A stretch of 64,000 nt of DNA from Marinobacterium sediminicola. GTDB taxonomy: Bacteria > Pseudomonadota > Gammaproteobacteria > Pseudomonadales > Balneatricaceae. Where the stretch lies: the NCBI RefSeq assembly GCF_022343685.1, contig NZ_CP092123.1:930001-994000 (forward strand), given 5' to 3'. Shown one piece after another: positions 4,156-33,331 of this stretch. The position numbers were made by a program, and so were the translations under genes. The notes below the pieces were generated by a model. That model was not told the origin of the DNA and did no database searches. It saw nothing but the letters and a program-made list of their open reading frames with translations. How positions within the stretch are numbered: the stretch's first letter is position 1; the number at the start of each line of letters is the position of its first letter.

Positions 4156-4213
4156 CGTATCTGGGGTCAGGTCAATAAAAGCGTTGTTCGCCTAATGGAG
4201 TGGGGATTTTACC

Positions 4214-17677: not shown

Positions 17678-18385
17678 TCAATCGAACCTTTGCAGCCGGT
17701 CGACCGCATAGTGCCAGCTTCGTTCGGCGACTTCCGGATTGTACTGCACTCCGTTTTCAGGGTTGTTGGCGTCCGGCAGCATGAAAGAGTGCTGCGTACG
17801 GCTGAAGTTGATGAACGTCAGATCCAGCTGGTGGCGTTCAAAGTAGCGCTCGGTGGTTCGAATATCCGCCTCCGGCACCATGGGATCGGCCAATCCATTC
17901 AAAATCATGAAACGGGTGGCAGGGTCGGCCGGTGGAGCGTTCAAGGGAAAGGAAAGCAGTCCGTGGAAGCTGATGGCATGTGCAAGGCCGGTCTGTGTCA
18001 GGCCCGAGAGCATTGCACACATGCCGCCCAGACAGAATCCCATCACCGAGTTGGTCATGGTCGTTTGACCGGTATGCGCCAGCACGAAGGCGTTCAGCCG
18101 GTGCAAGTGTCCCGTCATCGCCTTGAAGTCTCGCGTGTAACCCAGCATGGCCTCTCGCCGCGCTTCAATCGTGGACAGGTCGCAGTGACGGCCAAAAAAG
18201 TCCATCACAACAGCGTCCAGTCCTGACGTGTTTAACCGTTCGGCAATGTTGCGCTCGAAATCGGTAATACCTGCCCAGGTGGAATAGATCAGAACCTGAT
18301 GGGTGGCATGGTCGGTTTTGAATACTTCATGTCTGTGATGATTGTCCCCAAGAGACTGCTCAACGGTCTGTTGTCGATTTTTCAT
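17678..18385 (-). CDS. Dienelactone hydrolase family protein
   Basis: This 235-residue alpha/beta hydrolase has a cysteine nucleophile in MGFCLGGMCA (Cys118), acid Asp167 in NGLADPMVP and His199 in RTQHSFMLPDA, the Cys-Asp-His triad of dienelactone hydrolases. True DLH acts in chlorocatechol breakdown, but most chromosomal members have unknown esterase substrates. It is divergent from the aromatic catabolic operon across 251 bp; whether it belongs to that pathway is not shown, since that route uses meta rather than ortho cleavage. Confidence 0.85.
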   Translation of the reverse strand: MKNRQQTVEQSLGDNHHRHEVFKTDHATHQVLIYSTWAGITDFERNIAERLNTSGLDAVVMDFFGRHCDLSTIEARREAMLGYTRDFKAMTGHLHRLNAFVLAHTGQTTMTNSVMGFCLGGMCAMLSGLTQTGLAHAISFHGLLSFPLNAPPADPATRFMILNGLADPMVPEADIRTTERYFERHQLDLTFINFSRTQHSFMLPDANNPENGVQYNPEVAERSWHYAVDRLQRFD

Positions 18386-18576
18386 GAATACACCTATGTA
18401 TTGTTACGGTCTGGATTTTCGCGTATTTGGTGGCGCATGTCATCTGTCATGGAAGTGTTAGCCAAAAGTTTAACTTTGAACATTTATATGCATAAAAAAC
18501 AAAAAGTTATATTTATTTCTTGGGTTGTATTTCAGCTTTTGATGGTGTGGGGTTTGAATGACAGGAAGGGTTTTTG

Positions 18577-18605
18577 TTGACGGTTCTGTATGTTGTCACT
18601 AGTAT
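18577..18605 (+). promoter_or_regulatory. Promoter of the aromatic catabolic operon
   Basis: TTGACG (18577-18582) and TAGTAT (18600-18605) are spaced by exactly 17 bp, about 30 bp upstream of the first gene. The spacer contains one copy of the CTGTATGTT motif, so a bound regulator would cover the promoter. The rest of the 250-bp gap back to the DLH gene is AT-rich and has no gene. Confidence 0.7.
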
Positions 18606-18628
18606 CCGAATACACAACTGTATGTTCG
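18586..18628 (+). promoter_or_regulatory. Two direct CTGTATGTT half-sites at the catabolic promoter
   Basis: CTGTATGTT occurs at 18586-18594 and again at 18619-18627, exactly 33 bp apart (about three helical turns). The first lies inside the promoter spacer, the second just after the likely start point. The reverse complement, AACATACAG, recurs at the TRAP promoter of the same island. These are candidate binding sites for the pathway regulator, probably the TetR protein at 33.3-33.9 kb. Confidence 0.55.
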
Positions 18629-18636: not shown

Positions 18637-19461
18637 ATGAAAGAGTCAGATCGCAAGTTTGTTCAGGCGGCCGGTCATGAAACGGCGTACTTTGAATGCG
18701 GTGCCGGAGCACCTCTGTTGCTGCTGCACGGTTCAGGTCCCGGTGTATCCGGCTGGACCAACTGGAATGGTGTCATGGATCAGTTGGCAGAAAACTTCCA
18801 TGTCATCGTTCCGGATATTGCCGGCTTCGGTTTTACCGAATTCAAGGAGGATGCCCACTACGACATCAAGTTCTGGGTCAATCATCTGGTCGAGTTCATG
18901 GATGCCATCGGTCTGGATAAGGCCTCTCTGGTTGGTAACTCCTTCGGCGGTGCCGTTGGTATCGGTCTGGCGCTGTTCAACCCCGAGCGTCTGGATAAGC
19001 TGGTACTGCTGGGTACGCCGGCAGGTACGTTTGTACAGACCAAAGGATTGGCGGGTGCCTGGTTGTACGAGCCGTCAGTGGAAAACATGCGCGCTCTGAT
19101 GGAGCTGTTCCCGTACAACACGTCTCTGATCACCGATGAGCTGGTGCAATCCCGCTATGAAGCCAGCGCCCGACCCGGTGCCCAGGATGCTCTGCGCAAG
19201 CTGATTCCGCAGCCGAACACCGAAGGTGAAACCCTGGTCAAGGGCTTCCCGGAAAAGGCCATCAAGCATATTCAGGCTCCGACCCTGATCCTGCACGGGC
19301 GTGAAGATAATGTGGTGCCGGTGCAGTGTGGTCGCGTGCTGTCCGAGAACATCCCCAACAGCGATCTGTATGTGTTTGGTCAGTGCGGCCACTGGGTACA
19401 GACCGAGCAGAAGCAGAAGTTCCTCAATATTCTGAACACCTTCATCGGAGGTGTCGCATGA
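18637..19461 (+). CDS. Meta-cleavage product C-C hydrolase (MhpC/BphD-type alpha/beta hydrolase)
   Basis: This 274-residue alpha/beta hydrolase has catalytic Ser102 in LVGNSFGG, Asp224 in HGREDNVVP and His252 in GQCGHWVQ. The N-terminal GSGPGVSGWTNW and the LVGNSFGGA elbow match hydrolases that split the ring-cleavage product into 2-hydroxypenta-2,4-dienoate and a carboxylic acid. I chose ATG 18637, which has CGGAGG 4 bp ahead; an ATG at 18622 lacks a site. It is the first gene of the catabolic operon and overlaps the next start by ATGA. Confidence 0.9.
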   Translation: MKESDRKFVQAAGHETAYFECGAGAPLLLLHGSGPGVSGWTNWNGVMDQLAENFHVIVPDIAGFGFTEFKEDAHYDIKFWVNHLVEFMDAIGLDKASLVGNSFGGAVGIGLALFNPERLDKLVLLGTPAGTFVQTKGLAGAWLYEPSVENMRALMELFPYNTSLITDELVQSRYEASARPGAQDALRKLIPQPNTEGETLVKGFPEKAIKHIQAPTLILHGREDNVVPVQCGRVLSENIPNSDLYVFGQCGHWVQTEQKQKFLNILNTFIGGVA

Positions 19462-19742
19462 AGCGGGACGTGCTTGAACGCATCCTCTGGAGTCTCTCCG
19501 TGGATCGTTTCTCGAAGGAAAAATACCGCGAAGACCCGCAGAAATTCCTTGGACGATTTCCGCTCGATGAAGAAGGCGCGCGCATGATTCTCGAGTTTGA
19601 CGTCAAGGCGATGCAGGAAGAGGGCGTGAATCCGATGTTGACGCTTGGCTACTGGATCGAGATGTCGCCGGATCGCCGGGTTTCTTCCTATAACCGCAAG
19701 CTGGGCTCTGATTCCGCCCACTCCGCATCAATCAAGGGGTAA
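19458..19742 (+). CDS. Extradiol dioxygenase small subunit (LigA-like)
   Basis: This 94-residue alpha-helical protein of the LigA superfamily (KRDVLERILWSLSVDRFSKE, FPLDEEGARMILEFDVKAMQEEGVNP, TLGYWIEM) packs against and caps the active site of class III extradiol dioxygenases. Its start overlaps the hydrolase stop (ATGA) and the large subunit follows 5 bp later, so the two make one enzyme. Comparable separate small subunits occur in LigAB and in CarBaBb of carbazole degradation. No metal ligands are expected here. Confidence 0.87.
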   Translation: MKRDVLERILWSLSVDRFSKEKYREDPQKFLGRFPLDEEGARMILEFDVKAMQEEGVNPMLTLGYWIEMSPDRRVSSYNRKLGSDSAHSASIKG

Positions 19743-19747
19743 GCACT

Positions 19748-20590
19748 ATGGCAGAGATTACTGGCGGTTTTCTGGTTCCGCATGACCCGGTCATGTTCGT
19801 GGCGCCAGATGCGCCCGAGGCTGATAAAGCAAAGAAAGTGTGGGATGCCTATGAGACCTGTGCCCAGCGCCTGGCCGACAGCGCGGCTTCCAGCGTCATC
19901 ATCATCGGCAATGATCACTACATGCTGTTTGGCACCACTTGCCTGCCCAAATACTGCATCGCGACCGGTCATGTTGAAGGTCCGCTTGATCAGTTGCCGG
20001 GCTTGAAAAAGGAGCAGGTGAGCAACCACGAAGCGCTGGCGCAGCACATTGCCCAACAGGGCTCAGACAGTGGTTTTGATTGGGCGGTCGCACGCTCGTT
20101 TACCACGGATCACGCGTTCTCCATTCCCTACAAGCTGATTGTTCGCCGTGCCGAAGAGATCAGTGGTCGCAGCATTACGGCCATACCGGTGTATCTGGCC
20201 AGTGCCGTTGATCCGTTTATCACCAAGGCGCGCGCGCGTCAGTTGGGTGAGCAGATTCGCGCCGCAGTGGAGTCATTCGACAGCGATGAACAGCTCTTCG
20301 TGATCGGCAGTGGCGGCATCAGCCACTGGGTGGGGGTCAAGGAAACCGGCAAGGTCAACGAGGCGTTCGATCATCAGGTTATCGACCTCTGCTGCAATGC
20401 CGACATCGACGGGCTGGCGGCTTATACCGATGAGCAGGTGCTGGAAAACGGCGGCAACGGCGCTATGGAGATTCGCAACTTCATCTGTGCGATGGCTGCC
20501 GCAAATGCCTCCAGGGGAGAGCTGATCGAGTATCAGCCGGTGCCGGAGTGGGTGACCGGTCTGGGCTTTATTGAATTGAAGAAAGGCTGA
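19748..20590 (+). CDS. Class III extradiol ring-cleavage dioxygenase, catalytic subunit (LigB-like)
   Basis: The 280-residue protein of the LigB superfamily cleaves a catechol-type ring next to the diol using Fe(II) and O2. Expected metal ligands are His12 (VPHDP), His57 (IGNDHYMLF) and Glu241 (GAMEIRNF), with a catalytic His193 (GSGGISHW), all placed as in LigB. It pairs with the LigA-like subunit. It is unrelated to the type I (vicinal oxygen chelate) enzymes such as BphC that usually accompany this class of ring hydroxylase. The precise diol substrate is unknown. Confidence 0.9.
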   Translation: MAEITGGFLVPHDPVMFVAPDAPEADKAKKVWDAYETCAQRLADSAASSVIIIGNDHYMLFGTTCLPKYCIATGHVEGPLDQLPGLKKEQVSNHEALAQHIAQQGSDSGFDWAVARSFTTDHAFSIPYKLIVRRAEEISGRSITAIPVYLASAVDPFITKARARQLGEQIRAAVESFDSDEQLFVIGSGGISHWVGVKETGKVNEAFDHQVIDLCCNADIDGLAAYTDEQVLENGGNGAMEIRNFICAMAAANASRGELIEYQPVPEWVTGLGFIELKKG

Positions 20591-20596
20591 GCAGTA

Positions 20597-20944
20597 ATGG
20601 AAGTTATTGAAAAGGTGTTTTTGTGCAAGGTGTCAGAGCTTGCTGAAAACCAGGTCAAGAAAATCGATAACGCCGAGTTCGGTGACATCGCGGTGTACAA
20701 CCTCGGCGGCCACTATTACGCGACCGCGGATCTGTGTACGCACGCCACAGCATCCCTGGCCGAGGGAGATATCGAAGATGACATGATCACCTGCCCCGTG
20801 CACTGGGGACAGTTTCATATACCGACCGGCAAGGCGCAGGGGTTCCCCTGCGAAATCGACCTGAGAACCTATCCGGTCGAAATTGAGGGTGACGAGATAT
20901 TTGCCTTGATTGAGGCAGATCCGGCGTTAATTGCGAAAGGCTAA
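20597..20944 (+). CDS. Rieske [2Fe-2S] ferredoxin of the ring-hydroxylating dioxygenase
   Basis: This 115-residue ferredoxin has cluster ligands Cys47 and His49 (DLCTHATAS) and Cys66 and His69 (CPVHWGQF), the BphF/HcaC/CarAc pattern. It carries electrons from the reductase (29246-30235) to the oxygenase alpha subunit. The tail is slightly longer than usual. The stop codon belongs to a threefold GGCTAA repeat that gives three in-frame stops in a row. It lies between the extradiol genes and the oxygenase alpha gene. Confidence 0.93.
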   Translation: MEVIEKVFLCKVSELAENQVKKIDNAEFGDIAVYNLGGHYYATADLCTHATASLAEGDIEDDMITCPVHWGQFHIPTGKAQGFPCEIDLRTYPVEIEGDEIFALIEADPALIAKG

Positions 20945-20956
20945 GGCTAAGGCTAA
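20939..20956 (+). repeat. Three tandem GGCTAA hexamers at the ferredoxin stop
   Basis: GGCTAA is repeated three times without change. The first copy holds the ferredoxin stop codon, and the repeats place two more TAA codons in the same frame. AAAAGG, the ribosome site for the next gene, follows directly. Confidence 0.9.
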
Positions 20957-20969
20957 AAGGTGTCAGACC

Positions 20970-22316
20970 ATGGGAAATATAATTAAAACACTCGATGTAA
21001 CGGATTCATTGACCGGCCTCAAGGATGTTTGTGACCTTGAGAACGGACGTATTGCAGGCAAGATCTTCTACGATCAGGCGATCTACGAACAGGAGCTGGA
21101 AAAGGTATTCGCACGCTGCTGGCTGTTTGTGGCACACGAATCCCAGATCCCGAACACCGGAGACTACATCACCACCACCATGGGTGAAGATGAAGTGATC
21201 GTGATCCGCCAGAAGAGCGGCGGCATCAAGGTGTTCCTGAATGCCTGTCCGCACCGCGGCAACAAGGTCTGTTTTGCCGAGTCCGGCAGCACTCGAGGTT
21301 TTATCTGTAACTACCATGGCTGGTCTTTCAACGTCGAGGGTAACCTGGTCGGCCAGCATGAATCAGGGGTCTACGAAGACAGCAACTTTGACAAGTCCAA
21401 GTGGGGCCTGAAAGAAGTTGCCAAGGTCGATTCCTACAAGGGGTTGGTCTTTGCCACCTTTGATCCAGAAGCGCCAACGCTGAAGGAGTACCTGGGTCCG
21501 ATTGCCTGGTATATGGATGCTCTGTTCGACAATCAGGAGGGTGGCACCGAGTTTGTCGGCGGCTGCATTCGTTCCACTTACGAATGCAACTGGAAAATCG
21601 CGGCTGAAAACTTTGTCGGCGATATTCTGCATGCCGGTTGGACGCATGATTCTGCCGCACGTGCCATGCTTGGCGGTGCCGTGGCCAAGGTGAGTGACTT
21701 CGAAGAGTCCTACTCCGTCAACTGGAACGGTCATGGTTATGAATTTGCCCTCGATACCGTGGGCAATGTGGCGGTATTGGGTGAGAGTGCGCTGAACAAG
21801 TACCTGCATACCATCAAGCCGTCCGTTGCTGAGCGTCTGGGTGACTTCCGCTCCAACATGATCGGCTCAGTCTCCTCCTGCACCATCTTCCCGAACTTCT
21901 CCTTCCTGCCGGGCCAGAACACTGTACGTGTATGGCAGCCGCGTGGGCCGAACAAGATGGAACTGTTCACCTGGGTCGTGGTGAACAAGAGTGCTCCGGA
22001 AGAGGTAAAGGAAAAGTGGCGCAAGGGCGCGATGATGACGTTCTCTCCGACCGGTGTCTTTGAGATGGATGACGGAGAAAACTGGGAGTACTGCACCAAA
22101 ACTGCCAAGGGTCGTGTCACGGCTCAGCAGGATCTGTTTGTAGGGCTCGGAATGGACAGCCTGCTCACCGAAACACCGCTGCCGGGTAACGTTTATGAAG
22201 GTCAGTTGAACGAAGCCAACTCGCGTGCCTTCTACCAGTACTGGTACGACATGCTCAACTCTCGCAGCTGGAGTGAAGTTCCCAATCGTAACGTTGGCAA
22301 ACCGGAGGCTGAATAA
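20970..22316 (+). CDS. Aromatic ring-hydroxylating dioxygenase, alpha subunit
   Basis: This terminal oxygenase large subunit has 448 residues. The Rieske cluster ligands are Cys93 and His95 (CPHRG) and Cys113 and His116 (CNYHGW). The mononuclear iron site uses His221 and His226 in GDILHAGWTH, with the bridging Asp218, and an Asp in MDDGENW (367 or 368). The N-terminal block (WLFVAHESQIPNTGDY) is closest to 3-phenylpropionate/biphenyl-type enzymes such as HcaE. It would form the cis-dihydrodiol of an aromatic acid or hydrocarbon. I chose ATG 20970; an earlier in-frame ATG overlaps the ferredoxin. Confidence 0.94.
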   Translation: MGNIIKTLDVTDSLTGLKDVCDLENGRIAGKIFYDQAIYEQELEKVFARCWLFVAHESQIPNTGDYITTTMGEDEVIVIRQKSGGIKVFLNACPHRGNKVCFAESGSTRGFICNYHGWSFNVEGNLVGQHESGVYEDSNFDKSKWGLKEVAKVDSYKGLVFATFDPEAPTLKEYLGPIAWYMDALFDNQEGGTEFVGGCIRSTYECNWKIAAENFVGDILHAGWTHDSAARAMLGGAVAKVSDFEESYSVNWNGHGYEFALDTVGNVAVLGESALNKYLHTIKPSVAERLGDFRSNMIGSVSSCTIFPNFSFLPGQNTVRVWQPRGPNKMELFTWVVVNKSAPEEVKEKWRKGAMMTFSPTGVFEMDDGENWEYCTKTAKGRVTAQQDLFVGLGMDSLLTETPLPGNVYEGQLNEANSRAFYQYWYDMLNSRSWSEVPNRNVGKPEAE

Positions 22317-22855
22317 TGACTGCTCTGTATGATGAACTGCGTCCGGTATCTGCCGAACAGCATTACCGCATCACTCATTTTCTGAACTACGAATACCGCC
22401 TGCTGGACGATGAGCGCTTTGATGACTGGCTGGCGCTGATGCACGAGGATATCCACTACTGGATGCCGGGTATCGAAAACCGTCGCCGTGAAAATCTGCT
22501 CGAGCACGGCTTTTACGCGGCTGATCACATGGCATTCTTTGATGACCGCTTGCGTGATCTTGGACGGCGCGTCGCGCGCTTCCAGCAGCCTTCAGCCTGG
22601 GCTGAAAACCCGGCAACCCGAAACGTACACCAGCTGACCAATGTGGAGGTCTACTACGGTGAAACCGACGGGGAGTTTATCGTTTATTCCACTTTCCAGA
22701 GTGTGCGCAGTCGTGGCCTGGATGAAGAGTATGTCATCTATGGCCGCCGACAGGACCTGATCGTGGCTGATGGTGACCGCTTCAAGATCAAGAAACGCCT
22801 GATCCTGATCCCGAATGCGACGCTGACCTGCAAAAACATCAACACCTTCCTCTGA
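22316..22855 (+). CDS. Aromatic ring-hydroxylating dioxygenase, beta subunit
   Basis: The 179-residue small subunit with the cone-shaped SnoaL/NTF2-like fold shows ITHFLNYEYRLLDDERFDDWLALMHEDIHYWMP at the N-terminus and a conserved VSRFL-type stretch. It assembles with the alpha subunit, typically as an alpha3beta3 hexamer, and is structural. Its start shares one base with the alpha stop, as usual for these pairs. Confidence 0.92.
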   Translation: MTALYDELRPVSAEQHYRITHFLNYEYRLLDDERFDDWLALMHEDIHYWMPGIENRRRENLLEHGFYAADHMAFFDDRLRDLGRRVARFQQPSAWAENPATRNVHQLTNVEVYYGETDGEFIVYSTFQSVRSRGLDEEYVIYGRRQDLIVADGDRFKIKKRLILIPNATLTCKNINTFL

Positions 22856-22863
22856 GGTGCAGC

Positions 22864-23646
22864 ATGACAGCACTTGATAACAAGGTTGCTCTGGTTTCAG
22901 GCGGTGCAGACGGCATCGGTCGCGCCGTGGTCGAGCGCTATCTGGCAGAAGGAGCCAGAGTCGCGGTGTTCGACATCGATGCCGACAAGCTCGAAGCGCT
23001 CAAGCGTGATTACCCGGAGGGGCTGATCACGGTACGGGGGGATGTGACCTGCTACGAGGATAATGCGCGTGCGGTGGCCGATACGGTCGCCGCCTTTGGC
23101 AAACTCGATATTTTTGTGGGCAATGCCGCGCTGTTTGATTACTTCGTGCCGCTGCGCAAGATCGCTCCGGAAAGCCTGGCCGAAAACTTTGATCGCCTGT
23201 TTCACGTCAATGTGATGGGGTATCTCAACGGCGTTCGAGCCGCACAGGAAGAGCTGAAGAAAAGCCGCGGCAGCATCATTCTGACAGTGTCCAATTCCGG
23301 ATTCTATCCGGGCGGCGGGGGCATTCTCTATGTCACCTCGAAGCATGCAGTCGTTGGCATGATCAAACAGCTGGCCTACGAGATGGCACCGGATGTGCGC
23401 GTCAACGGAGTGTCTCCCGGGGCGACCGATACCGAAATGAAATCGGTAGAGGGGATTTCAGGACGTGCCCAGCCGCTGAACCAGATTCAAGGCTTCCATG
23501 AGAATGCGGCCAACGCCGTGCCGTTGAAGCGGATTGCATCGCCGGCGGACCACGCCGCACTTTATGTAGTGTTAGCATCCAGCGAACAGTCCCCGATGAC
23601 GACGGGAAGCGTTATCCACAGTGATGGTGGCTGGGTCGCCCGGTAA
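22864..23646 (+). CDS. cis-Dihydrodiol dehydrogenase (SDR family, BphB/HcaB-like)
   Basis: This 260-residue short-chain dehydrogenase has the NAD-binding GGADGIGR (13-20), NAA motif at 87-89, Ser143/Ser145, and YVTSK (Tyr156, Lys160). The GFYPGGGGILYVTSKHAVVGM stretch is characteristic of cis-2,3-dihydrodiol dehydrogenases that re-aromatise the diol to a catechol using NAD+. Context supports this: it follows the dioxygenase subunits by 8 bp. Confidence 0.92.
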   Translation: MTALDNKVALVSGGADGIGRAVVERYLAEGARVAVFDIDADKLEALKRDYPEGLITVRGDVTCYEDNARAVADTVAAFGKLDIFVGNAALFDYFVPLRKIAPESLAENFDRLFHVNVMGYLNGVRAAQEELKKSRGSIILTVSNSGFYPGGGGILYVTSKHAVVGMIKQLAYEMAPDVRVNGVSPGATDTEMKSVEGISGRAQPLNQIQGFHENAANAVPLKRIASPADHAALYVVLASSEQSPMTTGSVIHSDGGWVAR

Positions 23647-23683
23647 CGGGCAGGCCCAGTCATATAACTGGAGCATAACAATA

Positions 23684-24622
23684 ATGAATATTTTCCAACG
23701 TACGCGGCTGCCACTACTGGTGGCGCCGATGTTTCTGGTGTCTTCGCCAGCGCTGGTGATTGCCGGTGCCCGTGCCGGAGTGATTGGCGCACTCCCGGCG
23801 GCGAATGCCCGTACCGTCGAGACACTTGATGAGTGGCTGGCACAGATTCACGCCGAGCTGCACGAAGAGCAGCTGCCCTGGCTGCTCAATATGATCGTGC
23901 ACTCTTCCTACGATCGTTTCGATGCCGAGCTGGAGCTGGTGCGCCGTTATCAGCCTGCGATCGTGACCACCGCACTGGGTTCGCCGGCGCGGGTGACCGA
24001 TACCGTAAAAGCCTATGGCGGCCAGGTTTTCGCGGATGTGATCACCCCTGCCATGGCGAAGAAATCGATTGCGGCGGGAGTGGATGGCCTCATTCTGGTG
24101 TGCAGTGGTGCCGGCGGCCATACCGGCAGATACAACCCGCTGGCATTCATTAACGAAGTGCGAGAATTCTGGGATGGTCCTCTGGGGGTCGCAGGCTGTG
24201 TATCGCGCGGACGGGATGTGCTGGCGATGCAGGCAGCAGGGGCTGACTTTGTGGTCGTGGGTACGCGCTTTATCGCCGCACAGGAAAGCTTCGCCAGTGA
24301 CGAGTATCGCGACATGCTGGTCGCCTCCGGCCTTGAGGATATTGTTGAAACCACGGCGGTCAGCGGTGTTAATGCGACCTGGATGAAAGCCAGTCTGGAA
24401 AAGGCAGGCATTCAGCCTGAGCAGGCAGCTTCAAGCAAGCCGATCGACTTTTCGGGCAACATCTCAACGGCCAACAAGGCCTGGAAAGACGTATGGTCGG
24501 CTGGGCAAGGTGTGGGGGCAACCCGCGAAGTGGCATCAGCAAGCCAGATCATAGATGAATTGCATGAAGAGTATGTCTCAGCTCTGAAGCACATGAAAAA
24601 CCTGTCAGAGGGATACCTGTAA
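23684..24622 (+). CDS. Nitronate monooxygenase-like FMN protein (NPD/FabK-type barrel)
   Basis: This 312-residue TIM-barrel flavoprotein shows the FMN-phosphate signature with GAGGHTGRYNPLAF (His146 as the catalytic-type base) and ADFVVVGTRFIAAQES. Relatives include nitronate monooxygenases and FabK-type enoyl reductases, so the chemistry is not fixed by sequence. It is embedded in the operon; the stop directly abuts the next start. A nitro substrate is possible, but reduction of an unsaturated acyl or ring-fission intermediate is equally possible. Start 23684 has GGAG upstream. Confidence 0.82.
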   Translation: MNIFQRTRLPLLVAPMFLVSSPALVIAGARAGVIGALPAANARTVETLDEWLAQIHAELHEEQLPWLLNMIVHSSYDRFDAELELVRRYQPAIVTTALGSPARVTDTVKAYGGQVFADVITPAMAKKSIAAGVDGLILVCSGAGGHTGRYNPLAFINEVREFWDGPLGVAGCVSRGRDVLAMQAAGADFVVVGTRFIAAQESFASDEYRDMLVASGLEDIVETTAVSGVNATWMKASLEKAGIQPEQAASSKPIDFSGNISTANKAWKDVWSAGQGVGATREVASASQIIDELHEEYVSALKHMKNLSEGYL

Positions 24623-25405
24623 ATGAGTCAGGAAGAGTTCAATGCTGTAGCACAGCGCATAATTAAAGCCAGAACAGACGCGTGTGCGACCGGACCCATT
24701 TCGGCGGATTATCCCCATTTTGGCATGGATGACGCCTATGCAGTTCAGCAGCTGGTCAACCGTGAGCGACTGGAGAAAGGTGGGCGCGTAACCGGTTATA
24801 AGATCGGTTTGACCTCCGAAGCTGTTCAACGGCAGTTGGGGGTGGATCAGCCCGATTACGGTGTTCTGTTCGCCGAGATGGAGCGCCGCTCTGGTGCGCT
24901 GATCGATTGCTCGCAACTGATTGCTCCCAAGGCAGAGGGCGAGATCGGCTTCATTTTCAAGAATGATCTCGATCGAAAGGATCTGACGTTTACCGAGATG
25001 CTGGCCGAGATCGATTGTTTCATGCCCGTGGTGGAGATCGTCGATTCCGTGGTGCGTGATTGGAAAATCAATATCGTTGATACCGTTGCCGACAACGCTT
25101 CTTCGGCTCTCTACATGGTGGGTGCCAAACGGTTTGATCCTTCTGGGGTGGACTTTACCCGCCTGAGTGTGTCCATCGAGACGGAAGGCGGTGATCCCGT
25201 TCATGGAACCGGGGCGGCCTGTCTGGGTAATCCGTTGAACGCAACCTGGTGGCTGGCTCGAAAGCTGTATGATCTGGGCACCCCGATCCGAAAGGGGCAC
25301 CTTGTGCTGTCGGGTGCCATGGCGCCGATGGTCAGCATCGAGCCGGGCATGCAGCTCAGATTCAGCTTTGATCAGCTCGATGAGCTGGTGCTGAAAGCCG
25401 GTTAA
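24623..25405 (+). CDS. 2-Keto-4-pentenoate hydratase (MhpD/DmpE/BphH family)
   Basis: The 260-residue hydratase converts 2-hydroxypenta-2,4-dienoate to 4-hydroxy-2-oxovalerate with a divalent metal. Typical stretches are GGRVTGYKIGLTSEAVQRQL, DYGVLFAEM, AEGEIGFIF and VEIVDSVVRDWKINIVDTVADNA, which carries metal-binding acidic residues. The ATG follows the previous stop without a gap. It is the first of the three lower-pathway enzymes, although the aldolase and dehydrogenase are placed two genes further on. Confidence 0.93.
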   Translation: MSQEEFNAVAQRIIKARTDACATGPISADYPHFGMDDAYAVQQLVNRERLEKGGRVTGYKIGLTSEAVQRQLGVDQPDYGVLFAEMERRSGALIDCSQLIAPKAEGEIGFIFKNDLDRKDLTFTEMLAEIDCFMPVVEIVDSVVRDWKINIVDTVADNASSALYMVGAKRFDPSGVDFTRLSVSIETEGGDPVHGTGAACLGNPLNATWWLARKLYDLGTPIRKGHLVLSGAMAPMVSIEPGMQLRFSFDQLDELVLKAG

Positions 25406-25440
25406 CTGACTGATAACAATAAGATTCTAAAGGTTTTAAG

Positions 25441-27276
25441 ATGAGTGCAGATGTTTTTGCGCAGCTACCGAACACTCGTATAGCAGTCGAAAGTCGAGCT
25501 GACGGTGTCTTCATTGTCAGATCAGAGACGGAGCTGGGAACCTATGATCGTTGTGTCGGTGACTGGCTGGAAAGGTGGGCAGAAGAACGCCCGGGGCAGG
25601 TGTTTATTGCCGAGCGTCACGGCAGCACCTGGGATGAAGTCAGCTATGCCGAGTTTCGCACCCGTGTAAGGGCCGTGGCTCAGGGGCTGATTGATCTGGG
25701 GCTGGAAAGTGATGGTCAGCGGCCACTGGTCATTCTATCCGGTAACTCGGTTGATCATGCATTGATCAAGATGGCTGCCATGTATATCGGTGTACCGGTT
25801 ACACCTGTGTCAGTGGCCTATTCTCTGATGTCACGCTCCCATGATCGCTTGCAGGCGATTATCGCCAAACTCAACCCCTGCGCCGTGTTTGCGGATGATG
25901 CCGAGCTGTTCCGGGCATCCTTTGATGCGTGCAAGGGCGTCGACCTGTTCATCGCTTCACGCAATATCGAGCAGGGCAGCGGGGTTCACTGTCTCAAGGC
26001 CATGCTGGAAACCGAGGCATCTGAAGAGGTGGATCGCCGTTTTGCGGCCATTGGGCCTGATACTCACGCCAAATACATGCTGACGTCAGGCTCGACCGGG
26101 ACGCCAAAGGTCGTGGTCAATACGCAGCGCATGATGTGCTCCAACCAGCAGATGATTGCACAGTACTGGCCCTTTGTTGAAACGAAAGCGCCACGAGTGC
26201 TTGATTGGCTGCCCTGGAGTCACACCTTTGGCACCAACCACAATTTCAACCTGGTGTTGCGCAATGGTGGTTCGCTCTATATCGACAGTGGCAAGCCGCT
26301 GCCGGGTCTGATCGGCGAAACCATCCGCAATCTCCGTCATGTAAAGCCGAACCTGTTTTTCAATGTGCCCAAGGGCTATGAGGTCCTGTTGGAGCAGATG
26401 CGGGATGATCAGGCGCTATGCCAGTCCTTCTTCTCCAACCTGGACATGCTGTTTTATGCCGGAGCAGCCCTGTCCAGGCCTGTGTGGGATGAGCTCAAGC
26501 AGCTCTGTGAAGCCACGGGCAATGATGTGTTCTTTACCACCGAATGGGGCGCGACCGAAACGGCACCTGCCATCACCAACGTACATTGGCGGCTGGATCA
26601 GCCTGGCAACATCGGCGTGCCTTTCCCGGGGGTGGAGATCAAGTTCGTGCCTAACGGTTCCAAGCTGGAGATGCGCATCAAGGGACCGATAGTCTTCAAC
26701 GAATACCTCCATGACCCCGAGAAGTCAGCAGAGGCGTTTGATGAGGAAGGCTTTTATCGGATTGGGGATGCCGGCCTGTTGCAGGACCCTGATAACGCCT
26801 CAGCGGGTATCCGTTTCGATGGCCGAGTGTCCGAGGATTTCAAACTGAGCACGGGCACCTGGGTATGTGTTGCCAGTATTCGTGCTCAGGTACACAAGTT
26901 CTTCGGTGACCTGGTAACCGATGTGGTGGTGACCGGGCATGATCGTGACTATCTAGGCTTGCTCGTCATTCCGGGTCCCCGTATGCGCAAGCTGGCCGAG
27001 GACAAGGGCGGAACGATGACTGGTTCTGAATTGATGCAGGAGCCGCATGTCCGTGAAGAGCTGAATACGGCGATGACGCTGATGGCCCAGGTGGCCAAAG
27101 GATCGGCACAAAAGGTTTGCCGCTTGGTGGTGCTGGATACTCCCGCTGAAATCGAGAAGGGAGAAGTGACTGACAAGGGCAACCTGAACCAGAGAAAGAT
27201 GCTGGAAACGCGTGGCGTGGATGTCGAGCGCCTCTACGCGGAAAAACCGGATCAACTGGTTCTGAGCATTATCTGA
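25441..27276 (+). CDS. Feruloyl-CoA synthase-like AMP-forming acyl-CoA ligase
   Basis: The 611-residue ANL-superfamily ligase has its ATP loop TSGSTGTPK at 215-223, the TEWGATETAP motif and a C-terminal domain beginning near FDGRVSEDFKLSTGTW. This last segment (variant of DR-x-KD) is typical of the feruloyl-CoA synthase group (FerA/Fcs) rather than benzoate-CoA ligases. It would activate an aromatic or released carboxylic acid with CoA. Its presence inside a ring-hydroxylation operon is unusual; it may handle a side chain or the acid released by the C-C hydrolase. Confidence 0.88.
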   Translation: MSADVFAQLPNTRIAVESRADGVFIVRSETELGTYDRCVGDWLERWAEERPGQVFIAERHGSTWDEVSYAEFRTRVRAVAQGLIDLGLESDGQRPLVILSGNSVDHALIKMAAMYIGVPVTPVSVAYSLMSRSHDRLQAIIAKLNPCAVFADDAELFRASFDACKGVDLFIASRNIEQGSGVHCLKAMLETEASEEVDRRFAAIGPDTHAKYMLTSGSTGTPKVVVNTQRMMCSNQQMIAQYWPFVETKAPRVLDWLPWSHTFGTNHNFNLVLRNGGSLYIDSGKPLPGLIGETIRNLRHVKPNLFFNVPKGYEVLLEQMRDDQALCQSFFSNLDMLFYAGAALSRPVWDELKQLCEATGNDVFFTTEWGATETAPAITNVHWRLDQPGNIGVPFPGVEIKFVPNGSKLEMRIKGPIVFNEYLHDPEKSAEAFDEEGFYRIGDAGLLQDPDNASAGIRFDGRVSEDFKLSTGTWVCVASIRAQVHKFFGDLVTDVVVTGHDRDYLGLLVIPGPRMRKLAEDKGGTMTGSELMQEPHVREELNTAMTLMAQVAKGSAQKVCRLVVLDTPAEIEKGEVTDKGNLNQRKMLETRGVDVERLYAEKPDQLVLSII

Positions 27277-27291
27277 TTGGGTGTTAAATCA

Positions 27292-28203
27292 ATGAGCAAG
27301 AAACTGAAAGCGGCCATTATCGGCCCGGGTAACATCGGCACCGACCTGCTGATGAAAATGCAGCGCTCCGAGTGGATCGAGCCGGTCTGGATGGTCGGGA
27401 TCGACCCGACCTCCGAAGGCCTCAAGCGCGCCGAAGAGATGGGCATCAAGACCTGCGCCACCGGTGTGGACGGTCTGCTGCCGCACGTGATTGAAGACGA
27501 TATCCGCGTCGCCTTCGACGCCACGTCTGCCTATGTCCATGCCGAGAACAGCCGCAAGCTGAACGAGCTGGGCGTGATCATGGTCGACCTGACCCCGGCC
27601 GCCATCGGTCCCTACTGCGTCCCGCCGGTGAATCTGGAAGCGCACGCCAAGAACCTGGAGATGAACGTCAACATGGTCACCTGCGGTGGCCAGGCGACCA
27701 TCCCGATGGTCGCGGCAGTCAGCCGCGTACAGCCGGTCGAGTACGGCGAAATCATCGCCACCGTCTCCTCCCGTTCTGTCGGTCCGGGCACGCGCCAGAA
27801 CATCGACGAGTTCACCCGTACCACGGCCGGTGCCGTGGAGAAGGTTGGGGGTGCCAAGAAAGGCAAGGCGATCATCATCATCAACCCGGCCGAGCCGCCG
27901 CTGATCATGCGTGACACCATCCACTGCCTGACCGAAGGCGAGCCGGATCAGGCCGCCATCACCGAATCCGTGCACGCCATGGTGAAAGAGGTGCAGAAGT
28001 ACGTACCGGGCTACCGCCTGGTCAATGGTCCGATCTTCGACGGCAACCGCGTCTCCTGCTTCATGGAAGTGGAAGGTCTGGGCGACTTCCTGCCGAAGTA
28101 CGCCGGCAACCTGGACATCATGACCGCGGCCGGTCTGCGCACCGCCGAGATGTTCGCCGAAGAGGTGTCCAACGGCACCATTACCTTGCCTGAGCGTGGC
28201 TAA
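27292..28203 (+). CDS. Acetaldehyde dehydrogenase (acylating), MhpF/DmpF/BphJ family
   Basis: The 303-residue enzyme oxidises acetaldehyde to acetyl-CoA with NAD+ and CoA. The N-terminal [15 protein letters not shown] binds NAD; catalytic Cys lies in [13 protein letters not shown]. The C-terminal part holds the dimer and aldolase-contact region. It forms a channelling complex with the aldolase encoded 14 bp downstream. I chose ATG 27292 over an in-frame TTG at 27277. Codon use in this gene and the next is visibly richer in G/C third positions than the surrounding genes. Confidence 0.95.
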
Positions 28204-28217
28204 CGGAGGAAAGCAAT

Positions 28218-29246
28218 ATGAATCTGAACGGTAAGAAAGTCACGCTGCACGACATGTCTCTGCGTGACGGCATGCACGCCAAGCGTCACCAGATCAGTCT
28301 CGACGAGATGGTCAACATCGCCACCGGCCTGGATGAAGCGGGCATGCCGCTGATCGAAGTCACCCACGGCGATGGCCTCGGCGGCACGTCGGTCAACTAC
28401 GGTTTTCCGGCGCATAGCGACGAAGAGTATCTGGGTGCGGTCATTCCCAAGATGAAAAATGCCAAGGTTTCCGCCCTGCTGTTGCCGGGCATCGGTACCG
28501 TCGATCATCTGAAAATGGCGAAAGATCTGGGCGTGTCCACCATCCGTGTGGCGACCCACTGCACCGAAGCGGACGTGTCCGAACAGCACATCGGCATGGC
28601 CGCCAAAATGGAAATGGACACCGTGGGCTTCCTGATGATGGCCCACATGGTCAGCCCGGAGAAGATCCTCGAGCAGGCCAGGCTGATGGTCAGCTACGGT
28701 GCCAACTGCATCTACGCCACCGACTCCGCCGGTTACATGCTGCCGGATGAAGTGACCGCCAAGATCGGCCTGCTGCGCGCTGAACTGCCGAGCAATGTCG
28801 AGATCGGCTTCCACGGTCACCACAACATGGGCATGGCGATCGCCAACTCGCTGGCGGCGATCGAAGCGGGCGCGTCTCGTGTCGATGGCTCCGTCGCCGG
28901 TCTGGGGGCCGGTGCCGGCAACACGCCGCTGGAAGTGTTCTGCGCCGTGCTGGATCGCATGGGCGTCGAGACCGGTATTGATCTGTACAAGATCATGGAC
29001 GTGGCCGAAGACCGGGTGTTCCCGATCATGGATCAGCCGATCCGCGTAGACCGCGATGCGCTGACCCTGGGCTACGCCGGCGTCTACTCCTCCTTCCTGC
29101 TGTTTGCCCAGCGCGCGGAGAAGAAGTATGGCATTCAGGCCCGTGACATTCTGGTAGAGCTTGGTCGCCGCGGTACCGTCGGTGGTCAGGAAGACATGAT
29201 TGAAGACCTGGCACTGACCATGGCGAAAGAGAAGGGGCTGATCTGA
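28218..29246 (+). CDS. 4-Hydroxy-2-oxovalerate aldolase (MhpE/DmpG/BphI family)
   Basis: The 342-residue class II aldolase splits 4-hydroxy-2-oxovalerate into pyruvate and acetaldehyde. The (DmpG-like) barrel starts [18 protein letters not shown], with the metal-binding Asp in LRDG and the HGHHN metal histidines in [18 protein letters not shown]. It pairs with the preceding dehydrogenase so that acetaldehyde is passed directly. AGGAAAG precedes the start. The stop shares one base with the reductase start. Confidence 0.96.
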
Positions 29247-30235
29247 TGGGCCACGTCGTGACGGTAAATCCGGTTGGAAAAACGTATGAAGTTCAAGCAG
29301 ATACCAGCATTCTTGATGCCGGTCTCAAGGCTGGCGTTGTGCTCAAGCATGGCTGTCGAGATGGCCAGTGCGGTGACTGTCGGACCGAGCTGAAGTCAGG
29401 CCAGGTGGAATATCCTGAGGGATTGGTACTGAGTGAGACTGATATTGCGGGTACAACCGTACTGACCTGTCAGGCGAAGGCGCTCAGCGATGTGGTCCTG
29501 CACTCGCCGGAAGTCACCAGCTTTGAAGGCGTAACGGTACAGAAAGTCGCTGCCCGAGTAATGGGCAAGGAGCAGTTGGCTGATGATGTCGTCAAGCTGA
29601 CCTGCAAGCTGGCGCCGGGGGCGGTGTTCAACTATGTCCCGGGCCAGTACGTGGATTTGACCATCAAAAATGTCGTAACACGGAGTTACTCCATGGCGAC
29701 TGCTGAGGCTGTTGACGGCAGCATCGAACTGCATATCCGTCTGGTGCCGGGCGGTCAAGCGACACCGATGATCTTTGAGGACGTCCAACTCAAGAATGTG
29801 GTGACGATAGAAGGACCCTTCGGCACCTTCTATCTGCGCGACAGTGACGCACCTGCGATCTTCCTGGCCAGTGGTACCGGCTTTGCACCGATCAAGGCGC
29901 TGATGGAGCAGCTGATCGCGACTGGTAAAGGACGCAGGGTGCACCTGTACTGGGGCGGGCGTCGTGCTCAGGACCTGTACATGGATGAACTCTGCCGCCA
30001 GTGGCAGTCCGATCTGGACTGGTTTGAGTACACACCTGTACTTTCAGATGATCTGTCCGATTGGGAGGGGCGTACCGGTTTTGTCCATGCGGCGGTCATG
30101 GAGGACTACAGCGACCTGTCCGGATACCAGGTGTATGCCTGTGGCGCCCCGGTTGTGATTGACTCAGCTCGCCGTGATTTTGTGGCTGAATGCGATCTGG
30201 ATCAGAGCAACTTCTTTGCAGATGCCTTTGTTTGA
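29246..30235 (+). CDS. FeS-flavin electron transfer reductase of the dioxygenase system
   Basis: This 329-residue reductase has an N-terminal plant-type [2Fe-2S] domain (GCRDGQCGDC plus a fourth Cys in VLTCQAK), then an FAD domain (RSYSMATAE, the RxYS motif) and an NAD(P) domain (FLASGTGFAPIKALMEQL). It would pass electrons from NAD(P)H to the Rieske ferredoxin or directly to the oxygenase. This layout is like BenC or CDP-6-deoxyglucoseen reductase, and differs from the FAD-only reductase (HcaD/BphG) usually found with a separate ferredoxin. Confidence 0.93.
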   Translation: MGHVVTVNPVGKTYEVQADTSILDAGLKAGVVLKHGCRDGQCGDCRTELKSGQVEYPEGLVLSETDIAGTTVLTCQAKALSDVVLHSPEVTSFEGVTVQKVAARVMGKEQLADDVVKLTCKLAPGAVFNYVPGQYVDLTIKNVVTRSYSMATAEAVDGSIELHIRLVPGGQATPMIFEDVQLKNVVTIEGPFGTFYLRDSDAPAIFLASGTGFAPIKALMEQLIATGKGRRVHLYWGGRRAQDLYMDELCRQWQSDLDWFEYTPVLSDDLSDWEGRTGFVHAAVMEDYSDLSGYQVYACGAPVVIDSARRDFVAECDLDQSNFFADAFV

Positions 30236-30248
30236 TCGACCGGATGCC

Positions 30249-30303
30249 GGAGCAGCCCTGCTGCTCCGCATGTTTCAATCTTGCTGAGCCCCTTCGGGCT
30301 TTC
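30249..30303 (+). terminator. Tandem hairpins after the catabolic operon
   Basis: GGAGCAGC/GCTGCTCC with a CCT loop (30249-30267) is followed by AGCCC/GGGCT with a CTTC loop (30287-30300) and TTTCC. The second, with its short T run, could end the operon; neither is a strong terminator. Confidence 0.5.
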
Positions 30304-30341
30304 CTGATCCGACTTAAGTACTAGCACCGCAATGTTGCAAA

Positions 30342-30383
30342 AACATACAGGTGTGTTGAAAATACAGTACTGTACTGTATGTA
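30342..30383 (+). promoter_or_regulatory. TRAP operon promoter with a 19-bp perfect palindrome
   Basis: A perfect palindrome, arms ATACAGTAC and GTACTGTAT around a central T, covers 30362-30380. AACATACAG (30342-30350) lies just upstream and is the reverse complement of the CTGTATGTT sites at the catabolic promoter. A possible promoter TTGAAA (30356-30361), 16-bp spacer, TATGTA (30378-30383) has the palindrome as its spacer, as for a repressor site. Confidence 0.65.
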
Positions 30384-30413
30384 AGAATCATAATAACAAT
30401 TGGAGCCATAACA

Positions 30414-31451
30414 ATGTCGATGAAGACTACTAAAGTGTTCAAAGCCGGACTCGTCCTGACCGGTGCTCTCATTACATCTACCGCCAGCTGGGCCGCTGAT
30501 GTAACGCTCAGATACAACCAGTGGTTCCCGTCTCAGCACTGGTCACAGAAGGATGGCCTTTACCAGTACTTTGACGAGATCGAAAAGGTCACCGAAGGAC
30601 GTGTCAAGGTGATGCCTTCGGCCAAACCTCTGGCTCCGCCGACCCGCAACTATCAGGCTGTGGTGAACGGTATTGCCGACATTGCCTGGGGGCCTCATGG
30701 TTATGCGCCCGGTGCCTTCCCGCTGACCGAAATGGTTGAGCTGCCCTTTACCAACGAAAATGCCGGCATCAGCTCCGCTGCCTACTGGCGCCTGTTTGAA
30801 AAATACTTCAAACCGGCCGGTATGCATCAGGACGTTGTGACTCTGGCCGTCCATGTAACCTCTGGTGGCAACATCCACATGAAAGAGGATGCCATCACCA
30901 GCCCGGGCGATTTCAGCGGCAAGAAAATTCGTGTTCAGACCAGCGTCGTAGGGGATGCCCTCAAGACACTGGGCGCGGTCCCGATTGCAGGTTCTCTGTC
31001 CGAACTGCGTGAGTTTCTGTCCCGCGGCATCATTGACGGCACCACCTTGTCAGATGAGCTGCTGACCGGCTTCAAGGTCGACAATTACGTTGAAAAAATC
31101 ACTCAGATTCCGGGCGGCATTTTCACCAACAGCACCTTTGTCATCATGAACAAGGACAAGTGGAATCAGATCAGTGAAGCTGACCGCGAGGCGATTATGT
31201 CGATCTCGGGTGAGAAATTGGCCGTTCGCATGGGTAGCCTCTGGCATGAAAACGATGTCATGGCACGCGAGCAGCTGAAGTCTCGCCTCGGCGAGAATTA
31301 CATTCTGGCCGATGGTGAACTCAATGAGGCGATTGATCAGGCGTTTGAGCCTATCCGTGTCGCCTGGCTGGCCAAAGCCGAGCTGGAAGGGGTCAACGGT
31401 CAGGAGGCGATTGACTTCTACCGTCAAGAGATCGACAAGATCGCTCAATAA
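30414..31451 (+). CDS. TRAP transporter substrate-binding protein (DctP family)
   Basis: The 345-residue periplasmic binding protein has a Sec signal (cleavage near SWAADV), then the DctP fold with YNQWFPSQHW, a conserved Arg in GKKIRVQTSVVGDALKTLGA that usually grips the ligand carboxylate, and FTNSTFVIMNKDKW. It would capture the aromatic acid or related substrate of the neighbouring pathway. Start 30414 has GGAG upstream. It is the first gene of a dctPQM operon under the 30.36-kb palindrome. Confidence 0.92.
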   Translation: MSMKTTKVFKAGLVLTGALITSTASWAADVTLRYNQWFPSQHWSQKDGLYQYFDEIEKVTEGRVKVMPSAKPLAPPTRNYQAVVNGIADIAWGPHGYAPGAFPLTEMVELPFTNENAGISSAAYWRLFEKYFKPAGMHQDVVTLAVHVTSGGNIHMKEDAITSPGDFSGKKIRVQTSVVGDALKTLGAVPIAGSLSELREFLSRGIIDGTTLSDELLTGFKVDNYVEKITQIPGGIFTNSTFVIMNKDKWNQISEADREAIMSISGEKLAVRMGSLWHENDVMAREQLKSRLGENYILADGELNEAIDQAFEPIRVAWLAKAELEGVNGQEAIDFYRQEIDKIAQ

Positions 31452-31504
31452 AGGTTTGCTGTCGCGCTCCGGGTCGGGGCGCGACACTTCCCACCGAGGT
31501 TGTT

Positions 31505-31981
31505 ATGCGGATTTCACTGCTCAACTTGATGGAATACCTCTGTGCCAAAATCTCCATTCTGGCACTGATCGTCATGTCCGGAATTACATTCATGGATGTA
31601 TTCGGGCGGGTTGTTTTCAACAGTCCCATCGGGTTCTCGTACGAGGTCGTTGGGATCTGTCTGGGCATCTGTTTTTACTCCGGACTTTATCATGTGCATA
31701 AAAAGCGCAAACACGTCCGAATTGATTTATTGGAAAAACTATTTAAAGGCAAAGCGGGTGAAGTTATTGCCTGGTTTGGCTATTTAATTGAACTCGGTTT
31801 CTTTTCCACGCTTGTATATATGGTTTACAAGCAAATGGAAGAGTCAAAACAGTTTGGGGATATTTTCATGTTCCTAGGACTGGAAAAGTGGATTGTGATT
31901 GCGGCCATGTCGGTATTCGCAATCATCGCGCTGGTGAGCCTTGTGGTGGCCTATCCGGACAGAGAACAAGGAGAGGCTTGA
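31505..31981 (+). CDS. TRAP transporter small membrane subunit (DctQ family)
   Basis: The 158-residue protein has four predicted membrane helices (about 12-35, 48-66, 85-108, 120-150) and the conserved short motif GRVVFNSPIGFSYE between the first two. In TRAP systems this subunit joins the large DctM channel and helps dock the binding protein. It lies between dctP and dctM genes with short gaps. The middle of the gene is somewhat more AT-rich than its neighbours. Confidence 0.9.
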   Translation: MRISLLNLMEYLCAKISILALIVMSGITFMDVFGRVVFNSPIGFSYEVVGICLGICFYSGLYHVHKKRKHVRIDLLEKLFKGKAGEVIAWFGYLIELGFFSTLVYMVYKQMEESKQFGDIFMFLGLEKWIVIAAMSVFAIIALVSLVVAYPDREQGEA

Positions 31982-31990
31982 GGATTACCC

Positions 31991-33292: not shown

Positions 33293-33331
33293 ACGGCTAC
33301 CATTCAGTGCCCTGATGGTAGCCGTTTTTTT
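33293..33331 (+). terminator. Rho-independent terminator of the TRAP operon
   Basis: ACGGCTACCA pairs perfectly with TGGTAGCCGT and the inner TCAG/CTGA extends the stem around a TGCC loop; seven T follow. The stop codon of the convergent tetR gene (33330-33332) falls inside the T tract. Confidence 0.92.

Follow-up and report, generated by a model that had tools for sequence, protein, structure and literature searches.

Among the described systems closest to the locus analysed here is the hca-mhp pathway (hca in Escherichia coli; both halves on the Vibrio plasmid pVPH2), which combines a Rieske dioxygenase, a ferredoxin and a short-chain dehydrogenase/reductase (SDR) with an extradiol enzyme of the LigB superfamily, a C-C hydrolase and a hydratase-aldolase-dehydrogenase trio. 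The sections of the AromaDeg paper that concern 2,3-dihydroxyphenylpropionate dioxygenases (MhpB) place them among the LigB-superfamily enzymes (PMC4250580). All of these components recur in a gene cluster of Marinobacterium sediminicola, within a 64,000-nucleotide stretch of its complete, 3.55-Mb genome (contig NZ_CP092123.1, positions 930,001 to 994,000; hereafter the window, in whose numbering positions are given). The cluster differs from hca-mhp in its alpha subunit, which is of a different clade and pocket, in having a two-chain LigA/LigB enzyme rather than the one-chain MhpB, a CumD-like hydrolase, a BenC-like reductase instead of HcaD, uptake by a tripartite ATP-independent periplasmic (TRAP) transporter and a TetR-type regulator instead of HcaR, and in carrying an extra acyl-coenzyme A (acyl-CoA) synthetase and a FabK-like enzyme. 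We read it as an inducible operon, probably under repression by a TetR protein, through which a monocyclic aryl-alkanoic (phenylpropanoid-like) acid is taken up with high affinity and fully degraded aerobically, a reading that we hold with modest confidence, slightly better than even.

Single parts of the cluster resemble other systems. The closest alpha-subunit lineage with a presumed known role, at about 50% identity, is that of the presumed alkylbenzene dioxygenase on plasmid pRHL2 of Rhodococcus RHA1 (we take pRHL2-type alphas to be EtbAa/AkbA1-type alkylbenzene dioxygenases), although its neighbours include an extradiol enzyme annotated bphC and not the cassette of the window. The LigAB protocatechuate 4,5-dioxygenase family likewise consists of a small and a catalytic subunit, with active-site residues that are kept here. 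On pCAR3 a two-gene meta-cleavage enzyme, presumably of a carbazole route, stands beside a Rieske gene, and pXWY carries a LigB-like gene, preceded by a small gene, near a carbaryl hydrolase. CumD, which belongs to a cumene route, is the best match of the hydrolase, and its catalytic motifs align; residues around its position 129 (in what we take to be its numbering) differ in the window's enzyme.

Joining a Rieske oxygenase to an enzyme of the LigB superfamily is thus not new in itself, and the operon is an as yet unassigned form of a familiar pathway type, not a wholly new one. The first-pass annotation had called the pairing unusual and proposed a new assembly. Part of this stands: among the open-licence papers searched, we found no described cluster with this gene order and a known substrate. 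The rest gives way to the precedents of MhpB, pCAR3 and pXWY and of four loci from our own scan (L019, L022, L023 and L093), and to the occurrence of the cassette in gamma-, beta- and alphaproteobacteria alike.

Gene content and spread of the cassette

The cluster comprises 16 plus-strand genes in series (18637-33277), an enzyme block followed by the TRAP genes dctPQM. Intergenic gaps within the enzyme block are -4 to 37 bp, a spacing as in one operon, and 178 bp separate the reductase gene from dctP. The complete set of oxygenase, extradiol enzyme, hydrolase and lower-pathway components that the first-pass annotation had placed in one direction at 18637-30235 is there, each with family support; its list had passed over the acyl-CoA synthetase and the flavoenzyme inside that span, and the TRAP transporter and TetR gene beyond it. 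The lower-pathway trio consists of a probable 2-hydroxypenta-2,4-dienoate hydratase (24623-25405; NCBIfam DmpE 226.5 and MhpD-type 225.9 bits, both under their cut-offs), an acylating acetaldehyde dehydrogenase (27277-28203; TIGR03215, 472.6 bits over a cut-off of 282.25) and a 4-hydroxy-2-oxovalerate aldolase (28218-29246; TIGR03217, 551.6 bits over 286). The last gene of the block encodes a BenC-like FeS-flavin reductase (29246-30235), which scores 194.2 bits against NF040810, under the cut-off of 430, and has Fer2, FAD-binding and NAD-binding domains over cut-off.

A scan of 84,980 species genomes with alpha-subunit patterns (exact peptide patterns of one protein, and so no census) gave 71 loci, among which the nearest named relatives by alpha are Marinobacterium iners (97%) and M. 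halophilum (93%). In 56 of the 71 all seven genes for hydrolase, LigA, LigB, alpha, beta, dehydrogenase and flavoenzyme are present, and the best matches keep the window's gene order in 55 of these 56, which excludes chance association. LigA and LigB are found together in 58/71 loci, and the 15 loci short of the seven genes include more distant alphas (several from Cycloclasticus, for example), contig-end fragments and partial loci. Carriers include Marinobacterium, Nitrincola, Pseudomonas, Azotobacter, Burkholderia and Stappia, with chromosomal as well as plasmid-borne copies: the copy on Burkholderia cenocepacia pBcn842-1 is complete, and that on Tistrella pTM2 has a different ferredoxin reductase. 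The cassette is rare in random genome draws. LigB matches at E <= 1e-40 were found in 4/8 genomes of the genus, 7/293 of the order and 5/369 of the class (the window's own counted each time), the other class-level matches being only 42-46% identical; an alpha match at E <= 1e-120 was found in 1/398 genomes drawn across the phylum, namely the window's own.

A broken copy lies on Pseudomonas putida S12 pTTS12 (L098:16700-17846; L115), where LigA/LigB genes of a sister lineage, preceded by a TetR gene, are followed by an unannotated stretch that matches about half of alpha and is cut off beside mercury-resistance (mer) and Tn3-family genes, about 10 kb from styrene genes; the pTTS12 paper, where it treats the srp pump, names a phenylpropionic acid cluster beside it. 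Matches to single genes are fragmented in three Pseudomonas loci (L067 and L094, in alpha, beta and flavoenzyme; L049, in the hydratase and others), as are the hydratase matches in L020, from the window's own genus, which suggests frameshifts or sequencing errors.

The ring-hydroxylating and ring-cleaving enzymes

The alpha subunit (20970-22316; the start, taken as 20931 or 20976 in searches, is the ATG at 20970) belongs to a biphenyl-superfamily Rieske oxygenase joined to a two-chain LigA/LigB extradiol enzyme, as first annotated. The narrower label of BphA/HcaE type did not hold: alpha is 50.2% identical to the pRHL2 alpha (which we take to be EtbAa; its record reads SRPBCC family protein) and 50.8% to the pNL1 alpha, against 38.8% for HcaE of E. 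coli and 37.1% for BphA1 of RHA1. In a quick tree of 49 rows, with 32 family alphas hand-picked to thin near-copies and long-branch warnings for distant rows, the 32 lie on one side of a branch (Shimodaira-Hasegawa-like approximate likelihood ratio test, SH-aLRT, 93) beside the pRHL2, pNL1, L093 and Cycloclasticus rows. The family forms its own branch neighbouring the EtbAa clade, not inside it, and HcaE joins BphA elsewhere in the tree (SH-aLRT 99). As judged by these sequences, the oxygenase is EtbA-side rather than HcaE/BphA-side.

Alpha scores 397.7 bits against the HcaE model NF042946 (cut-off 830), and no operon protein reaches the cut-off of the strict HcaE, HcaF or HcaB equivalog models. 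Two broad phenylpropionate-named models are passed, NF007479 by the beta subunit (22316-22855; 174.1 bits over 145; Pfam Ring_hydroxyl_B 124.2 bits) and NF004849 by the SDR, a cis-dihydrodiol dehydrogenase (22864-23646; 350 bits over 330). The RHA1 pRHL2 and pNL1 loci bear these broad names too, so the names are uninformative here; automatic names such as '3-phenylpropionate/cinnamic acid dioxygenase' cover enzymes of other clades and call for caution. The Rieske ferredoxin (20597-20944) is assigned by family models.

We then compared 16 substrate-pocket positions, as listed in the pocket section of the paper on B-356 biphenyl dioxygenase (PMC3536784). Positions were transferred through RHA1 BphA1; the five quoted RHA1 residues agreed and the others were placed with the same offsets (the row pairs L014/L027, L015/L028, L016/L030 and L018/L058 each represent a single contig). 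The family pocket, N F D I H A/G H A/N N L V/I S L Q F F, is almost invariant, apart from single rows that have A or V at 231, G at 277 or F at 287 and from an incomplete L067 row. The pocket of HcaE, Q F D Q H A H F D W - H L T F L, differs from that of the family at 9 of the 16, the changes from HcaE including 226 Q to N, 231 Q to I, 287 W to L, 321 H to S and 334 T to Q (B-356 numbering). That of the pRHL2 alpha, N F D A H A H G D L V S L I F F, differs at four (231, 277, 283 and 334). One near-invariant pocket, unlike those of HcaE and pRHL2, suggests that the family acts on one substrate class and argues against an HcaE assignment.

The extradiol enzyme is encoded by a LigA-like small subunit (19458-19742; Pfam LigA 26.3 bits, marginal against a cut-off of 25.3) and a LigB-like catalytic subunit (19748-20590; Pfam LigB 120.8 bits). 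Two His and one Glu, presumably the iron ligands, and a further His, presumably catalytic, align with chain B of 1b4u, and together with the separate small-subunit gene these residues agree with a two-subunit, class III LigAB enzyme. Every LigB-type NCBIfam model that the protein matched was under its cut-off. Compared with characterised enzymes independently of alpha, which falls outside HcaE/BphA, LigB also has a lineage of its own: in a tree of 43 rows, 30 family LigBs (hand-picked to thin near-copies) form one clade with the pTTS12 protein and a second copy from Pseudomonas linyingensis (SH-aLRT 99). Its nearest neighbours in the tree are the proteins of pXWY, L019 and US6-1. The pCAR3 protein has a long branch, and so does Vibrio MhpB, whose branch is very long and separate.

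The second P. linyingensis copy is part of a TetR-LigA-LigB-alpha-beta set lacking a hydrolase (L046:3276-7317), directly before the complete operon, and its LigB groups with that of pTTS12. Other LigA/LigB pairs, not of the window's operon type, lie beside distant Rieske alphas in L019, L022, L023, L025, L026 and L093, with two copies about 4.5 kb apart in genomes G445 and G556.

The meta-cleavage-product (C-C) hydrolase (18637-19461) finds its best solved match in CumD, the 2-hydroxy-6-oxo-7-methylocta-2,4-dienoate hydrolase (E 1e-73), with other structures at 3e-44 or weaker and MhpC-type structures at about 1e-35. Its Ser-Asp-His motifs align with those of CumD and are invariant across 27 aligned rows, as expected of a CumD-type enzyme.

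The promoter palindrome and the TetR-type regulator

The palindrome AATACA-N4-TGTATT occurs at three places in the cluster. It is exact at 18387-18402 (AATACACCTATGTATT, both 6-base arms palindromic) and has one mismatch at 18609-18624 (AATACACAACTGTATG) and at 30361-30376 (AATACAGTACTGTACT). The second copy starts 28 bp before the hydrolase start and lies just 3' of the -10 box of a sigma-70-like operon promoter predicted by sequence reading on the plus strand (TTGACG-17-TAGTAT, 18577-18605), and the third starts 53 bp before dctP. The window holds seven matches at two or fewer mismatches, against 0.87 expected (0/100 shuffles reached seven); four of the seven fall outside the three cluster sites, which counts against an operator.

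Relatives were scanned over at most 400 bp upstream of the hydrolase gene; the motif had been noticed in the window before it was counted in them, and the loci are related rather than 48 independent events. ATACA-N4-TGTAT is exact 5' of the operon in 37 of 48 gamma- and betaproteobacterial loci (16/16 marine gammas, 21/32 others), and the next best of all 1024 half-sites is exact in 9/48. At one mismatch the count rises to 47/48 (L066 being without it), but the permuted half-site ACATA then reaches 36/48 (10/16 and 26/32) with 3/48 exact; since the one-mismatch count is weakly specific, the case for the palindrome rests on the exact count. It was not found in alphaproteobacterial loci (0/13 valid rows, L077 being left out), where no other half-site exceeded 8 rows (AGCAT, spacer 7). 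Ten distinct marine gamma loci had dctP in range, and eight of them carry a palindrome 50-70 bp upstream of that gene (the window, L020, L028, L029, L031, L033, L036 and L039; not L017 or L037).

Genome-wide, the palindrome matches at 10 places with at most one mismatch (20 strand hits), three of them in the cluster, and a backward-pattern control gave 2 per strand. Six of the other seven sites are inside reading frames; the seventh (L103) lies 26 bp 5' of another gene and within a predicted frame that is overlong. Among these seven we found no convincing regulon member beyond the cluster.

A TetR-family gene lies on the minus strand after dctM (33330-33926; Pfam TetR_N 42.3 bits over 24). Regulators that look alike by eye in translation stand beside the operon in L041, L046, L047, L050, L055 and L063, in Pseudomonas, Azotobacter, Pantoea Ap-967 and Ignatzschineria hosts. 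A TetR gene and a conserved promoter palindrome thus occur together here, as in TetR-controlled catabolic operons, and the operon is probably repressed by its TetR protein, to judge from the enzyme and regulator families and the putative operator.

The exact palindrome lies directly 5' of the predicted start of a divergent minus-strand gene for a dienelactone-hydrolase-family protein (17678-18385; Pfam DLH 81.6 bits), a start that may be wrong because the palindrome is so close. This gene is possibly in the same regulon as the operon; a homologue is present at the equivalent place in some of the marine gamma loci but not all. In the Ignatzschineria locus the palindrome is repeated at 20947, 5' of a gene for an HcaD-like ferredoxin reductase, below cut-off (L041:19509-20711), and the usual position yielded no BenC-like reductase.

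Pathway, substrate and the coenzyme A step

On the reading we favour, with an order of reactions inferred from enzyme families, the acid anion would enter through the TRAP transporter and its ring would be 2,3-dihydroxylated by the three-component Rieske dioxygenase, with electrons passing from NADH through the BenC-like reductase and the Rieske ferredoxin to alpha-beta. The SDR would rearomatise the ring, the LigA/LigB pair would carry out proximal extradiol cleavage and the CumD-like enzyme would hydrolyse the product to 2-hydroxypenta-2,4-dienoate and a side-chain acid, after which the hydratase, aldolase and acylating dehydrogenase would convert the dienoate to pyruvate and acetyl-CoA. Our guess for the acyl-CoA synthetase is that it activates either the substrate or the released side-chain acid, and for the FabK-like flavoenzyme that it acts on the resulting CoA ester; the substrate itself is likewise a guess.

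The transporter genes bear on the substrate. DctP (30414-31451; Pfam DctP; best solved match 4p56, E 9.4e-54), DctQ (31505-31981; Pfam DctQ) and DctM (31991-33277; TIGR00786, 298.5 bits over 268.45) follow the enzyme block, and TRAP genes occur in the window and 18 of the 56 seven-gene loci (7 marine gammas, 11 of the alphaproteobacterial type), with more hidden by contig ends. Elsewhere the operon is accompanied by Liv-type ATP-binding cassette (ABC) proteins (L046, L047 and, by eye, L050, all Pseudomonas), by an aromatic acid/H+ symporter-like protein, below cut-off (L066, Burkholderia OK233), or by an OprD porin (Pseudomonas ERMR1:02). By neighbourhood only, these lineage-varying transporters all suit an organic acid or anion. 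The catabolic genes at the CouPSTU/TarPQM locus of Rhodopseudomonas palustris are of another kind than the window's. There, according to the parts of PMC3610893 that deal with these proteins, ABC and TRAP transporters serve one aromatic-acid locus, and CouP (ABC) and TarP (TRAP) both bind cinnamates with nanomolar Kd. It is mainly because of this precedent that we keep a phenylpropanoid-type acid, a reasonable guess compatible with the transporters, as the first guess.

The synthetase (25441-27276) is of the PRK12582 subfamily (NF009232, 705.1 bits, under the cut-off of 777), and its orthologue on pBcn842-1 is annotated feruloyl-CoA synthase. By tblastn, a synthetase at least 40% identical to it is present in 39 of the 56 loci, and a further 10 have only a distant AMP-binding protein (24-27% identity). 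Loci of the alphaproteobacterial type carry the distantly related AMP-binding enzyme instead, upstream, before the TRAP genes or (L075) before the hydrolase, and the pathway therefore seems, by sequence, to include CoA ligation. A second PRK12582-type synthetase (2657-4531) and a 591-aa reading frame of unknown family lie upstream of the operon in Amphritea atlantica (L035:845-4531). On pBcn842-1, annotated acyl-CoA dehydrogenases, an enoyl-CoA hydratase, a lipid-transfer-protein-type thiolase, an AMP-binding protein and an electron-transfer flavoprotein come directly before the operon's TetR gene (L099:1-12654), and sucCD follows the operon.

Several observations weigh against an aryl-alkanoic acid. 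Alpha is closest to an alpha of what we take to be the hydrocarbon type (EtbAa). The hydrolase is closest to CumD, which presumably acts in nature on a compound with an uncharged isopropyl side chain; the listed pocket positions hold neither Arg nor Lys, and the uptake role is deduced from gene neighbourhood only. Succinate or fumarate as side-chain acid (from phenylpropionate or cinnamate) would need no CoA synthetase. Moreover, 7 of the 56 loci gave no synthetase match within the fetched stretches: L052, L057 and L077 are cut by contig ends and in Tistrella L072 an AMP-binding gene is annotated ahead of the TRAP genes, leaving L068, L071 and L082 with no such explanation.

Two other substrates were considered and set aside. 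Phenylacetate is less likely given that the host genome has its own PaaA (500.5 bits, over cut-off). For a p-cumate-type route, the cmt pathway needs a decarboxylase, and none was recognised among the scanned operon genes.

We consider it unlikely, though worth weighing, that the operon is another hca-mhp pathway that takes free 3-phenylpropionate and/or cinnamate to succinate or fumarate. As far as the substrate goes, this would be a narrower version of the reading that we favour. The broad models passed by the SDR and beta subunit would agree with this, as would an MhpT-like symporter, below cut-off, adjoining one locus, the palindrome-preceded HcaD-like reductase of Ignatzschineria and the sucCD genes near the pBcn842-1 copy. 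However, the cut-offs of the strict models (HcaE, HcaF, HcaB) are not reached and the broad names recur on pRHL2 and pNL1; alpha is in another clade than HcaE with the pocket changes described above, the hydrolase matches CumD far better than MhpC-type enzymes, and the CoA synthetase and flavoenzyme would be left without a role.

A doubtful alternative concerns the flavoenzyme (23684-24622; the start, taken as 23621 or 23672 in searches, is the ATG at 23684), which might stand outside the carbon route and serve for protection, as an NAD(P)H:quinone reductase for recycling o-quinones that arise from the catechol intermediate. It is an FMN-type protein with a Pfam nitronate monooxygenase (NMO) domain, found in 56 of the 58 loci having hydrolase, LigA and LigB, and its gene comes after that of the catechol-forming dehydrogenase in the window and in other loci with both, a position that would suit such a role. 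Its predicted structure (mean predicted local distance difference test score 88.8) matches FabK, nitronate monooxygenases and PA1024 about equally (template modelling score, TM, 0.7-0.8), the NADH:quinone reductase PA1024 (6e2a) being among the matches at TM 0.81, but fold scores do not separate these subfamilies. The sequence comparison included an alignment of 25 flavoenzymes. By sequence, its best solved matches are FabK enoyl reductases (2.7e-21), followed by class I NMO (3.8e-9), with PA1024 not listed; we accordingly describe it as enoyl-reductase-like and not as a class I NMO. A nitronate or nitroalkane substrate (3-nitropropionate from a nitro side chain, for instance) was set aside, with sequence favouring FabK over class I NMO and fold scores undecided.

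An uncharged alkylbenzene or related, cumene-like hydrocarbon, from which the hydrolase would free a short fatty acid for activation by the operon's acyl-CoA synthetase, is improbable: the alpha and hydrolase affinities noted above favour it, but the palindrome-preceded TRAP transporter and the Liv-ABC and aromatic-acid-symporter-like genes of other lineages fit an acid, and the family pocket has Asn and Gln in place of the Asp and Ile of the EtbAa-like alpha. Equally far from our expectation is an upper pathway that runs wholly on CoA thioesters, a CoA-tethered counterpart of hca-mhp. The PRK12582-type synthetase would first make an aryl-propenoyl- or aryl-alkanoyl-CoA, the FabK-like enzyme would reduce the side-chain double bond, the Rieske dioxygenase and the LigA/LigB enzyme would attack the ring of the thioester, the CumD-like hydrolase would free an acyl-CoA directly (succinyl-CoA for a C3 side chain), and the TetR protein would sense the CoA ester. 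The recurrence of the flavoenzyme and of a synthetase of either of the two distantly related types (49/56 loci by tblastn), the latter near transporter genes or the hydrolase in loci of the alphaproteobacterial type, points in this direction.

An operon for uptake and complete breakdown of a phenylpropanoid-like acid remains the reading we favour. The locus presents a tractable annotation problem, not a conceptual surprise. It suggests that some environmental aromatic acid is degraded via a route not named in the literature searched, and three features make the question of its substrate directly testable: the near-invariant pocket, the palindrome and the solute-binding protein.

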